A stretch of DNA of 37,329 nt from Planctomycetota bacterium (lineage in GTDB: Bacteria > Planctomycetota > UBA1135 > GCA-002686595), in NCBI GenBank assembly GCA_011053145.1, contig DRLC01000166.1:1-37329 (forward strand), written 5' to 3'. Positions 3,232-19,757 of the stretch are shown piece after piece. The notes under the pieces are model-generated. The model did no database searches. It had not been told where the DNA came from and saw nothing but the letters and a program-made list of their open reading frames with translations. The translations under genes were made by a program, and so were the position numbers. Position 1 is the stretch's first letter. The number at the start of each line of letters is the position of its first letter.

Positions 3232-5745
3232 TCAGTGCGGGGTCGTCGACGGAGCGCCCCAGGCGATCCAGGTCCCCCAGTAGTGGGGGTGGTGGAAACG
3301 CGGGTCGGAGCGCAGCTCCACGCGTGCCCGGCGCAGCGCTTCGGAAACCGCAAGGCCCTGGTGGACCCCCTCCAGGACGCCGGCGCACAGGCGCGAGGTC
3401 GCTTCGGCCTGGAGGGGCACGGCGGAGAGGAGCACCGTTCGTGCCCCCGCGCGCAGGAACGATGCCCCGAGGTGCCCGGAGTCCTCGGCACCGAGGCGAA
3501 CCTCTCCCCCCGCAGCGTCGCAGGAAGCGAGCAGGACGAGCGGAGGCGCGGAGAAGGTCCGTGAACGGGTCAGGGAGTCGAGCTCGCCGGGGAAGAGTTC
3601 GCCGTCCCCGAGCCACGCTCCGCGCGCGAGTCGAAGTCCCTGGGAAAGGGCCCGCCTGCGATCGCGCAGTCCGTGGGCGAAGACGAGGAGAGCCCTTCGA
3701 TCGCGCAGCTCAGCAATGGACGACAGCCGTGCTCGGTCGCCTTCGAGCCAGTTCACTCCTTCGTCCGCGAAAGCCGCCTCGATCCGATCTTGGGAAGGCC
3801 GGGAGAAGCGCGCTGGGTCCCCCTTTCCCCCGGCAGCGATCAGCGCGACGACTCCCCGGGTGGTTCGCCCTTCCCTTCGGACGAGAGCCAGTGCGACCGC
3901 GGACGAAGGCAGCGTGACCACCTGCCGTCGAAGTCCCAGGGGGCCGACACCCGGAAGGGGGAGGACGTCGAGCGGTATGCGCCGCAGGAGATCGTTCCCC
4001 ACGACGAGCAGTCGGCGTGCAGGAAGGATGAGCGCCGCGAGCTTCGGAGGGAAGAGGAGGTCCGCGAGGGCACCTGCGGACGGAGGATCGGGTGCGTCGG
4101 TTGAGACGGGGCGACGACCGAGGTCGCGCCAAAGGGACTCGATCGCGGGGTCGAGGTCCTCCATGCTCGGGAGTCGAGCGTGGGCGAGTTCGGTCTTCGT
4201 CAGGGCGAAGGCGTGCGTCGCACGGGCTGTCGGCATGAGCACGAGCAACACGTCGCCGTCGCAAAGGAGGTCCGAACGCAGTTCCGAGACACCTGGAGGG
4301 CTCGCACCCAGGTCGCCGGCGAGCGAGCCGACCGACCGCGCCCGCAGGCTTTCTTCCATCGCGACGCGCACCCCCTTCTCGCCGGGCCATGCCGTCAGGC
4401 AGAGGTCGAGCACGTCGGCGAGGAGTCGCCGCCTCGGAGGGAAAGCGAGGATGCCGACTCCGGCACCCTCGTCTTCTCCCTTCCATGTGTCGAGGAACTG
4501 TCGGTAGGCGACGAGCGCGTCCCGCGCCGCACTCGGAACATCGCACTCGCCGACGGCGAGGCCGAGCCGGGCTGCCAGGATTCCGGATCGCGCCCGTTGC
4601 AAGGGCCACCGCTCTCCACCTTCGAGGGAGGCCAACTCCCGAAAGCTGCGGAGGGCCTCTCCGGCTTCCGCATTCGCTCCTCGCTCCAACTCGAGATCCG
4701 CTTGCTCGAGAAGCGCGAGTCCTCGGATCATCGCCGGCAGGGAAGGTGCGTCGAGAGCCCGTCGCAGGAGCGCCGGGGACGCGTCCGCGTCCCCTCCGGG
4801 AACATGACGCCTGCAGACGGCTTCGTAGTAGTCGAGCTGGGCACGGACCGAGTCTGGAAGGGGTTCCTCTCGCATCCTTGCGATCCGGTCGAGGGCCCAG
4901 GGGTAGCGTCCGGTGCTACTGCCCTGGCGGACCCACGCCAGATCGAGTGCCTCGCGGAGTTCGCGCTTGCGCGAGTCCTCCTCGCCCTCCGCGGCCGGCC
5001 AGGAAGCGTACTCGGCCTCCGCATCGGCCAGGAACCGCCCGGCTCCGATCCAACGTCCGAGGCGGGCTTCGCACGAGGCTGTCTCGAGTTCGAGGTAGGC
5101 ACGCTCGAGGTAGGCGTTCGAGCGCGACACCAGACGTTCCCGCAGAGCATCCAGGACCCCCTCCGCCTTCCGACTTTCCCCATGCGCGCGCAGGCAGCGG
5201 GCCGCGAGGAGGGGGACCCATGCTGCCGTCGCCGGTTCGGCCTTCAGGTACCGTTCGAGCCCTTCGCGCGTGAGGAGGCTTTCGAGATGCGGCACGTCCT
5301 CGAGGTTCTGCTCTTCGGCGGTGTGCAGGAGCCAGGAGACGAGTTCGATCTCGAAGCTTCCGGCCCGATCGTCGCGGCGTGTGAGCGTCAGAACGATTCC
5401 CATGAGTCGCTCCACACTGGGAACCGCGAGCGGCCAGCCGACCGCTTCCGCGGAACGAAGGGTGTTGAACGCCCGAAACCACGGCCCCAGGCAGCCTTCG
5501 TCGCCGCGTTCTCCCGCCGCGGTCAGTGCCTCTTCGAGCCCACGGAGGGCCTCGATCTGCTCTTCGGGCCGTGAAGCCTCCAGGAACGACGCCACCGCAC
5601 CGTCGAGCCCGGCACACGGCGCCTGGTCTTCCTGGGGGAGGGGCGGAGTGAACGGGCGCGACCGTGCCCCGATACCCAGGGGAACGACCGGGAGGAATGC
5701 GAGCAGGAGGTGTGCGGCATTCCGCGGAGCGGCGGGAGGGGTCAC
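3232..5745 (-). CDS. Exported CHAT-domain (caspase/separase-like) protein with helical repeat region
   Basis: 837 aa from a GTG at 5745, three bases after the upstream stop. The N-terminus has a hydrophobic stretch (HLLLAFLPVVPLGIGA) that looks like a signal or anchor. Residues about 45-470 are alpha-helical and Ala/Leu/Glu-rich, as in degenerate TPR arrays (SLPAMIRGLALLEQADLELE). The C-terminal part from about residue 480 is a CHAT domain: LLLVLMP-type early strands, LLVFAHGLRDRR with the presumed catalytic His691, PLVLLASCDAAGG with the presumed catalytic Cys742, then GASFLRAGARTVLLS. Both dyad residues are present and about 50 residues apart, as in the C14/C50-like clan CD. CHAT proteins are predicted or proven cysteine proteases. 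It is the last gene of the sigma/anti-sigma operon. The substrate is unknown. An export signal on a CHAT protein is unusual and should be tested. Confidence 0.82.
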   Translation of the reverse strand: MTPPAAPRNAAHLLLAFLPVVPLGIGARSRPFTPPLPQEDQAPCAGLDGAVASFLEASRPEEQIEALRGLEEALTAAGERGDEGCLGPWFRAFNTLRSAEAVGWPLAVPSVERLMGIVLTLTRRDDRAGSFEIELVSWLLHTAEEQNLEDVPHLESLLTREGLERYLKAEPATAAWVPLLAARCLRAHGESRKAEGVLDALRERLVSRSNAYLERAYLELETASCEARLGRWIGAGRFLADAEAEYASWPAAEGEEDSRKRELREALDLAWVRQGSSTGRYPWALDRIARMREEPLPDSVRAQLDYYEAVCRRHVPGGDADASPALLRRALDAPSLPAMIRGLALLEQADLELERGANAEAGEALRSFRELASLEGGERWPLQRARSGILAARLGLAVGECDVPSAARDALVAYRQFLDTWKGEDEGAGVGILAFPPRRRLLADVLDLCLTAWPGEKGVRVAMEESLRARSVGSLAGDLGASPPGVSELRSDLLCDGDVLLVLMPTARATHAFALTKTELAHARLPSMEDLDPAIESLWRDLGRRPVSTDAPDPPSAGALADLLFPPKLAALILPARRLLVVGNDLLRRIPLDVLPLPGVGPLGLRRQVVTLPSSAVALALVRREGRTTRGVVALIAAGGKGDPARFSRPSQDRIEAAFADEGVNWLEGDRARLSSIAELRDRRALLVFAHGLRDRRRALSQGLRLARGAWLGDGELFPGELDSLTRSRTFSAPPLVLLASCDAAGGEVRLGAEDSGHLGASFLRAGARTVLLSAVPLQAEATSRLCAGVLEGVHQGLAVSEALRRARVELRSDPRFHHPHYWGTWIAWGAPSTTPH

Positions 5746-5748
5746 AGG

Positions 5749-6480
5749 TCAGCGAACCTGGCGCACGACGAGGATGCGAGGCGGAGAACCGCTCTCTTGG
5801 AGGGCCAGCTCGAATTCTATCCCGGGCGGAGCGTCCTCCGAAGACGCCCCCGCGGGGAGTACCCGGACGGGCGACTCCACGTCGTCCCCTTCGAACAGCA
5901 GTGCCGTGCGTTCCCCCCTCGTGTCGAGGGCCCACGCACGCAGCGAGACTCGGTCGGTGGGAAGCGCGCCTTCGCGGGTCCACGCGAGGGTGCCGAATTC
6001 TTGTTCCGGGAGGATCTGCGCAAAGGCGTCGCCCTCGAGGTAGGTGCGTTCGCCGGGGGGCGGCTCGAGGGGCTGGGGAGAACGCTGGAGCTTCGTTCCG
6101 AGGAACACCAGCACGACGGCGGCGGCGACGAGCAGGAGCGCCCGTAGCCCGTTCCGGCCGGGCGCGTCGCCGTGTGCCGAAACGGGTCGGGGGGGATTCG
6201 CTCGGTCGGGGATCCCGCGTTGCATCTGCTCGCGAAAGCCTTCGAGGATCCGCTCCTCTTCGGAGAGGTCCGCCCGATCGGAACGCGCGGCGAGGGCGTG
6301 GCGCATCTCTTCGCACTCCTCCTCGAGGGTCTCCTGGGTGGTTCGGATTCCGTCCCAGCGGGTTCGAAGCTCCGCATCTCCATCGAGCCGCTGACGGATG
6401 GCGGGATCCTCCTCGGAGACCTCTCCCGAAGCGAGTGCCACCAGGAGGTCCTCCGCATCGACGTTCGCCCACCCGCTCAT
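5749..6480 (-). CDS. Putative membrane anti-sigma factor (one TM helix)
   Basis: 243 aa from an ATG at 6480. The ATG overlaps the TGA of the sigma gene (ATGA), which indicates translational coupling. Residues 1-100 are acidic and helical (DLLVALASGEVSEEDPAIRQ; LSEEERILEGFREQM), one TM segment lies at about 111-129 (GLRALLLVAAAVVLVFLGT), and a soluble beta-rich extracytoplasmic part of about 115 residues follows. This layout of a cytoplasmic binding domain, one helix and an outer sensor domain, cotranscribed after an ECF sigma gene, is typical of anti-sigma factors. The HxxxCxxC zinc anti-sigma motif is absent; only a lone Cys56 is seen. The role is inferred from layout and position rather than from a recognised domain. 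Confidence 0.72.
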   Translation of the reverse strand: MSGWANVDAEDLLVALASGEVSEEDPAIRQRLDGDAELRTRWDGIRTTQETLEEECEEMRHALAARSDRADLSEEERILEGFREQMQRGIPDRANPPRPVSAHGDAPGRNGLRALLLVAAAVVLVFLGTKLQRSPQPLEPPPGERTYLEGDAFAQILPEQEFGTLAWTREGALPTDRVSLRAWALDTRGERTALLFEGDDVESPVRVLPAGASSEDAPPGIEFELALQESGSPPRILVVRQVR

Positions 6481-7187
6481 CGGATCCCCTCCGCCGAGGA
6501 CGCCCGCGGACCCGGGAACGCGCTGCGCAGCCGTCCCTCGAGGGTCGAGATGGCGCGGTAGTAGCGGGTCTTCGCGGTGTTCGGAGAGATCCCGAGACGC
6601 CGAGAAAGTTCGGGGAAGCTCAGGCCCTCGAAGTGCTTGAGGTCGACGACCACGCGCAGTGCCGGTGCGAGGCGCGCGAGCTCCCCGTGGATGAGTTCTC
6701 GCTCGTCCTCGGCCAGTTCCGCGGGCGGTGGAGCCGCCGGCGTGATTTCGATGGCCTCGGTGGACAGGGTCCGCCGAGCGCGGCGGCGTTCCGCGAGAAC
6801 CAAGGCACAGTAGCCGAAGGCCCACGATTCCAGACTCGAGCGTCCGCTGAAGCGGTCGAGGTGGCTCCAGATCCGGCTGAACACCTCCTGGGACACATCG
6901 AATCGCTCCTCCGCATCGAGAGCCGGCCCACGGCGTTTCACGATCGATCCAATCATCCGTGGTATGCAGCGCATGCGCTGGAGGAACTCCTGAGAGGCTT
7001 CTTCATCTCCGGCCAGGACGCCCTCGACCAGACGAACATCTTCCGAGAGGCGCGGTGAATCCTCCCGAGAGGTGGAGCCGGCGGCTCGATGGTTCTCCGA
7101 TTCTGCTCCTTTTGCTTCGTCCTGCCTCATTCCATACGGCTCCGCGTCCATTGTATCCCCCTGCGATCGCGTGGGTGCCGATCTCAT
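6477..7187 (-). CDS. ECF-type RNA polymerase sigma factor
   Basis: 236 aa. The ATG at 7187 has a strong AAGGAG about six bases upstream, so the Ser/Glu-rich 45-residue N-terminal extension seems genuine; ATGs at residues 13 and 20 are alternatives. Region 2 spans about residues 52-140 (LVEGVLAGDEEASQEFL; FDVSQEVFSRIWSHLDRF; SLESWAFGYCALVLAERRRA). Region 4 spans about 165-222, with the helix-turn-helix LSFPELSRRLGISPNTAKTR. These are the -10 and -35 recognition domains of sigma-70 group 4, and regions 1 and 3 are missing. It heads the operon with the membrane anti-sigma and the CHAT protein, which suggests a membrane-sensed signal controls this operon and other targets. Autoregulation is likely but no promoter motif could be assigned. 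Confidence 0.9.
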   Translation of the reverse strand: MRSAPTRSQGDTMDAEPYGMRQDEAKGAESENHRAAGSTSREDSPRLSEDVRLVEGVLAGDEEASQEFLQRMRCIPRMIGSIVKRRGPALDAEERFDVSQEVFSRIWSHLDRFSGRSSLESWAFGYCALVLAERRRARRTLSTEAIEITPAAPPPAELAEDERELIHGELARLAPALRVVVDLKHFEGLSFPELSRRLGISPNTAKTRYYRAISTLEGRLRSAFPGPRASSAEGIR

Positions 7188-19067: not shown

Positions 19068-19757
19068 ATGACGAACGACGAGAAAGACCCCGACGAAGAG
19101 TTGGTCCCCGCCGACCGCGCCCACGAGCTCCCCGAGGAGCTGCGCGGGGAGGAGGTCGGGGCCCTGGTCGAGCGCGCCCAGGCCGGGGATGGGGAGGCGC
19201 TGAACGAGCTGTTCACGCGCTACCACGGAACGCTCGTGGACATGGCTCGGCGCAGGCTGGGTCCCAAGCTGCGGCGCAAGGAGGATCCCGACGACCTCGC
19301 CCAGACGACGTTCCGCGAGGCGACGCGGGATTTCGGTCGCTACGAGTACCGCGGGGAGGACTCGCTCCTGCGCTGGCTCATGATGATCCTGTCGAACAAG
19401 ATTCGGGACAAGGCGGAGTACTACTCGGCGGGCAAGCGGGACATGACCCGGGAGCGCTCGGTGGAGTTCGCGCGGCCGGACGACGAAGGAGACCGCATGG
19501 TCTACGACCCGCCGTCGGAGGACCTCTCGGTGACGCGCCAGGTCCAGCGCGAGGAGGAGTTCAAGATCCTCCGGGAGGCACTCGAGGACCTTTCGGACGA
19601 CCACCGTTCCGCGATCGCGCTCGTCTTCTTCCGCGGCTTGACCCTGCGGGAGGCCGGCAAGCGGCTGGGCGGCCGGTCCGAGGACGCCGTCCGGATGCTC
19701 CTGCGGCGCGCCGAGGCCAAGATGCGCGACCTGACGCGCTCGCGCCTCGCGAAATAG
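19068..19757 (+). CDS. ECF-like sigma-70 family RNA polymerase sigma factor
   Basis: 229 aa from the ATG at 19068. The first 30 residues are acidic (DEKDPDEELVPADRAHELPE). Region 2 covers about residues 32-125: ALVERAQAGDGEALNELFTR, RKEDPDDLAQTTFREATRDF and LLRWLMMILSNKIRDKAEYY. Region 4 is about 160-222: LEDLSDDHRSAIALVFFRGL, then the helix-turn-helix LREAGKRLGGRSEDAVRMLL. It matches the planctomycete-expanded ECF-like sigma factors that act without a neighbouring zinc anti-sigma gene. It follows ligA by 116 bp on the same strand, and no partner gene is adjacent. Targets are unknown. Confidence 0.88.
   Translation: MTNDEKDPDEELVPADRAHELPEELRGEEVGALVERAQAGDGEALNELFTRYHGTLVDMARRRLGPKLRRKEDPDDLAQTTFREATRDFGRYEYRGEDSLLRWLMMILSNKIRDKAEYYSAGKRDMTRERSVEFARPDDEGDRMVYDPPSEDLSVTRQVQREEEFKILREALEDLSDDHRSAIALVFFRGLTLREAGKRLGGRSEDAVRMLLRRAEAKMRDLTRSRLAK

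Follow-up and report, generated by a model that had tools for sequence, protein, structure and literature searches.

An operon of an ECF sigma factor, a one-TM anti-sigma and an exported CHAT protein in Planctomycetota: a proposed envelope-signalling module

The stretch of DNA analysed here, 37,329 nucleotides long and referred to below as the window, forms contig C166 in a draft genome of 4.05 Mb. Behind groES/groEL it carries three tightly packed genes on the minus strand, which encode an ECF-type sigma factor (236 aa; 6477..7187), a predicted membrane anti-sigma (243 aa; 5749..6480) and a CHAT protein with features of export (837 aa; 3232..5745). The stop codon of the sigma gene overlaps the start of the anti-sigma gene in an ATGA, and the CHAT frame opens with a GTG after a gap of 3 bp. 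An earlier note on this DNA had described the same three genes, with the same overlap and the same gap, and this description is confirmed on the minus strand. The genes downstream of the trio are oppositely oriented, so that it appears to be a complete operon.

The first gene product has the sigma2 and sigma4 regions and neither sigma1.1 nor sigma3, as is typical of the ECF type. It matches TIGR02937 with 63.5 bits and Sigma70_r4_2 at 4.7e-11; its sigma2 region, judged in this single protein, scores 23.2 bits, just under the Pfam cut-off of 24, and the profile of its family recognises solved ECF sigma factors with a best E-value of 4.5e-25. When the proteins of the own genome are searched with this profile, the two trio sigmas alone fall below 1e-60, and the next best match stands at 1e-24. 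The same genome holds, on contig C156 (L044), a second complete sigma/anti-sigma/CHAT set, whose CHAT protein is ~34% identical to that of the window over the C-terminal part. A separate ECF sigma gene of weak similarity (1e-10) lies in the window at approximately 19116-19757 on the plus strand, downstream of a NAD-dependent DNA ligase-like gene.

The middle gene product is, as far as its sequence allows it to be classed, a class-I-like anti-sigma, with a predicted sigma-binding N-terminal domain, one transmembrane (TM) helix and an ectodomain of ~110 aa. The TM helix covers residues ~110-128, the Met being excluded from the count (6094..6150, minus strand; hydropathy 2.29), and the conserved extracytoplasmic domain is encoded at 5749..6030 on the same strand. 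In the family, the medians are ~220 aa in total, with 96 residues inside, one TM and ~111 residues outside. The TM is present in 49 of 51 homologues, and the charges that flank it place the N-terminus in the cytoplasm in 42 of these 49 and give the reverse orientation in one. A single-sequence AF2 model of the window protein has helices at residues 8-17, 25-33, 35-68 and 72-87 and the TM at 107-129; its pLDDT exceeds 80 over most of the first 60 residues and stays mostly below 60 in the strands of the ectodomain. A Foldseek search with this model gave no significant match because the model is mostly poor beyond the N-terminal helices. Positions 3-66 of the family profile align with the solved chain 3hug_B at an E-value of 8e-4; this chain we take to be the anti-sigma RslA of M. 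tuberculosis. In addition, an NCBIfam anti-sigma model is matched by 19 of 35 homologues, with scores below its cut-off, and an H-CxxC motif occurs in 16 of 51. As for the ectodomain, the alignment of the homologues reveals the pattern F-x-W ... W-x-P ... P-x-x-I-x-W-E-V, with conserved aromatic and proline positions; perhaps it adopts an Ig/FN3-like fold.

The third gene product begins with a signal-peptide-like N-terminus (5665..5745, minus strand; h-region at aa 14-25, hydropathy 2.42), which is followed by a helical region and by the CHAT domain at aa 556-830 (PF12770, 2.8e-30; 106.2 bits, the curated cut-off being 24). The same Pfam model is matched by all 20 sampled homologues. The predicted catalytic residues, which the earlier note had put at about His691 and Cys742, are found at exactly these positions (codons 3673..3675 and 3520..3522, minus strand), and a search for their loss among the homologues found the dyad unchanged, as H and C, in all 92 members compared. 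The helical repeat region that had been claimed between the export segment and the CHAT domain is plausible: TPR_12 is matched by 6 of 20 homologues and some others match further TPR models, whereas no Pfam TPR model matches the protein of the window. The single-sequence fold of this protein, with a pLDDT of 39, is too poor for use.

Where does such a protein reside? Signal-like N-termini, of the kind noticed earlier in the window protein, occur in 81 of 85 homologues, a count that is to be read as indicative since the criteria are our own and 24% of internal windows pass them as well. A C-terminal TM with a basic tail is present in 56 of 98 CHAT proteins, the window's own being without this anchor. 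Together, the near-universal signal-like N-termini and the anchors, whose positive tail is of the cytoplasmic type, point to a location outside the cytoplasm and so add to what had been suspected from the export segment. Taken with the N-in orientation of the anti-sigma, they place the CHAT protein and the ectodomain on the same outer face of the membrane. A scan of a collection of genome contigs with the single CHAT protein returned only two partial matches in Yersinia, and a plasmid search returned CHAT-domain fragments only. The own genome also has a third CHAT gene (L001, C336:923-1699), which is of another type and falls outside the CHAT family of the trio.

Of the 61 related genomes searched, 28 yielded homologues of the CHAT protein. 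A phylum-wide profile search separated two classes, full-length proteins (E < ~1e-60) and those with the CHAT domain only, and the full-length class spans at least nine families. Its 98 distinct members come from 38 genomes; at 87 of their loci, in 35 genomes, sigma and anti-sigma genes lie directly upstream on the same strand, and 7 of the 11 loci without a complete trio are interrupted by contig ends. Wherever enough upstream DNA is available, a sigma gene lies just upstream of the CHAT gene in 89 of 91 family loci, against 1, with a weak match, among the 16 loci of the same phylum that have the CHAT domain only and served as the control (Fisher 3e-15). Thus, the arrangement is not a matter of chance, and the conserved order on which the earlier reading depended is present in relatives, with up to seven sets in one genome. 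At some loci the lengths of the open frames had suggested fusions of the anti-sigma with the CHAT protein; these were ruled out by frame plots, which indicate separate genes.

A search that started from the anti-sigma profile led to 18 further loci (L185-L202), 13 of them with a full-length CHAT gene; L189 has a partial CHAT frame, L202 ends at a contig edge, and L193, L196 and L201 are without CHAT. With regard to whole genomes, 19 have both CHAT and anti-sigma, 2 the anti-sigma only and 20 neither (p 9e-10), a result that indicates co-loss more than independent discovery because the anti-sigma profile was built from trio loci. Paralogous sets within a genome also diverge together: no label shuffle out of 500 reached the correlation observed between sigma and CHAT, and the corresponding figures are 8 of 500 for anti-sigma and CHAT and 22 of 500 for sigma and anti-sigma.

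Several loci depart from the common plan, L130, L059 and L183 being the true exceptions among the 98. At L130 (4305-7720) the sigma gene is followed directly by a CHAT gene with a signal peptide, and the anti-sigma gene is missing; at L059 a 3-kb insertion separates anti-sigma and CHAT; and at L082 a one-TM ORF that is unmatched by the profile occupies the anti-sigma position. L183 (4057-11788) has a tandem pair of CHAT genes behind one sigma/anti-sigma pair, both products carrying C-terminal membrane anchors. Sigma/anti-sigma pairs without CHAT occur at L171, L193 and L196, which means that other routes of activation exist. Three further cases stand singly and serve as leads, with no statistics attached. 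In the first, L168 (1400-2617), a single frame of 406 aa joins the sigma to an anti-sigma with H-CxxC domain, TM and ectodomain; the product is predicted to be a membrane-tethered sigma, and the fusion marks the middle gene as the partner of the sigma. In the second, L166 (4053-7307), one ORF holds a remnant-like sigma segment, a TM and an ectodomain of the trio type, and an exported S8 subtilase then replaces CHAT, a lead toward the exchange of one type of protease for another. In the third, L167, the TM of the anti-sigma is lost and CHAT is absent.

What, then, might the three proteins do together? The best explanation is that the trio is a self-contained module for envelope signalling. The N-terminal helical domain of the anti-sigma would bind the ECF sigma in the cytoplasm and keep it inactive at the membrane, while the C-terminal domain would be exposed outside. 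There, the exported CHAT protein, a putative cysteine protease of the caspase/separase kind that is frequently anchored to this membrane on its outer side, would read a signal through its helical, TPR-like region and, once the signal arrives, make the site-1 cut in the ectodomain of the anti-sigma with which it is paired. An M50 site-2 protease and Clp, both of the housekeeping kind, could then complete the proteolysis and free the sigma; the own genome encodes M50 proteases.

The central step of this scheme, cleavage of the anti-sigma by the CHAT protein, had been offered earlier as a possible design. It is now the best-supported model, favoured by the known parallels, the co-inheritance, the subtilase at L166 and the gene fusion. 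It is on the analogy of Csx29 with Csx30 and of CalpL with CalpT, two pairs studied by experiment in which the protease cuts its partner, and of CHAT substrates in general, which are commonly encoded beside the protease (PMC9729208), that the CHAT protein is taken as the site-1-type protease of the ectodomain. The cleavage is what we infer, and we judge the chances that this best model is correct to be about evenly balanced.

Would the position of the CHAT gene be explained equally well if its product had no part in regulation? It could be an effector, that is, a co-transcribed protease that processes surface or foreign proteins, with sigma and anti-sigma sensing the envelope signal by another route. 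Sigma factors often drive their own operon, and adjacency alone would fit a regulon effector too. The near-obligate 1:1 pairing, the co-divergence of sigma and CHAT within genomes and the anchoring of CHAT in the membrane beside the anti-sigma, however, fit a regulator better. Nor is autoregulation backed by a promoter motif in common: in a weak test, none was found among 96 regions upstream of the sigma genes, the top gapped patterns being equal to those from the reverse strand and from shuffled sequences. On the other side, the effector reading is favoured by the three pairs that do without CHAT and by L130, which keeps CHAT without the anti-sigma, and several paralogous sets in a genome would suit different effectors. 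This reading therefore stands beside cleavage of the anti-sigma as a possible, if rather unlikely, account.

A second question is whether cutting is needed. The CHAT protein might be a non-proteolytic sensor, which would bind the ectodomain through its helical region and CHAT domain and so alter the grip on the sigma. Its large helical region, the co-divergence and the conserved ectodomain all agree with such a role, as does the fact that no cleavage motif was evident in the anti-sigma linker; yet a dyad without a single exception in 92 members is more than a mere binding domain would need, and this makes a sensor of that kind improbable. As for a Craspase-like system for death or defence in the cytoplasm, which would mean that the N-terminal hydrophobic stretch has been misread, CHAT domains are often effectors of conflict systems (PMC10907252) and the CHAT-anti-sigma-sigma logic is common to Csx29 (PMC10028731), but the 81 of 85 signal-like N-termini, the C-terminal anchors, the absence of CRISPR-like direct repeats from the window and a PADLOC match of the trio proteins limited to a weak partial BovA (0.0021) make it very improbable indeed.

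ECF sigma factors are among the main means that bacteria have for sensing their surroundings, and release of the sigma is mostly initiated by shared housekeeping proteases. What is known of CHAT proteases comes mainly from cytoplasmic settings, CRISPR and cell death. If the preferred reading, cleavage of the anti-sigma by the exported CHAT protein, is true, ECF sigma factors would have a new kind of input in a dedicated, exported caspase/separase-like protease whose gene is part of the operon, and CHAT proteases would be placed at the cell envelope. Moreover, the trio is a simple, testable and CRISPR-free set for studying how CHAT proteases and anti-sigmas came together.

Among the closest known systems is Craspase (Csx29-Csx30-CASP-sigma), where, in type III-E CRISPR, the CHAT protein Csx29 cuts Csx30, an inhibitor of an ECF sigma, all encoded in one locus (PMC10028731). 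In both cases a CHAT protease, an ECF-sigma inhibitor and an ECF sigma share one locus; the CHAT protein of the trio is exported and often membrane-anchored, whereas that of Craspase is cytoplasmic, and in place of Csx30 the trio has a one-TM, class-I-like anti-sigma as the inhibitor. The first 12 kb of the window lack an ORF of the size of Cas7-11, the window as a whole lacks an array of spaced direct repeats, and PADLOC gave no CRISPR match for the three trio proteins. The three-gene logic of protease, anti-sigma and ECF sigma is likewise that of CalpL-CalpT-CalpS, in which CalpL cuts CalpT, the anti-sigma of the neighbouring ECF sigma (PMC11417357); CalpL, in contrast, is of the Lon type and is driven by cyclic oligoadenylate through its SAVED domain.

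With DegS-RseA-sigmaE and RsiW-sigmaW, which work by RIP, the trio shares a one-TM anti-sigma with an outer domain and a predicted opening by a protease on the outer face. The trio differs in that its predicted site-1 protease is a dedicated one, with a gene in the operon itself, and belongs to the CHAT cysteine type and not to the PDZ serine proteases. Sigma factors of the group ECF54 are encoded near CHAT, subtilase or carboxypeptidase proteins, and proteolysis has been proposed for the group; it is described without an anti-sigma (PMC8999054), and this description sets it apart from the trio, in which the membrane anti-sigma is constant. In the library that was searched, no paper was found on an exported CHAT protein with a membrane anti-sigma, and the group of the sigma may already stand in the main ECF classification. 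Somewhat less likely than not is the broader reading that the trio is a membrane-side, CRISPR-free and widespread counterpart of Craspase, in which an exported, separase-like CHAT protein would be dedicated to the site-1 cleavage of a class-I-like anti-sigma, in several parallel copies per genome, and that cytoplasmic systems of the Csx29-Csx30-sigma type may be related to housekeeping modules of this sort.
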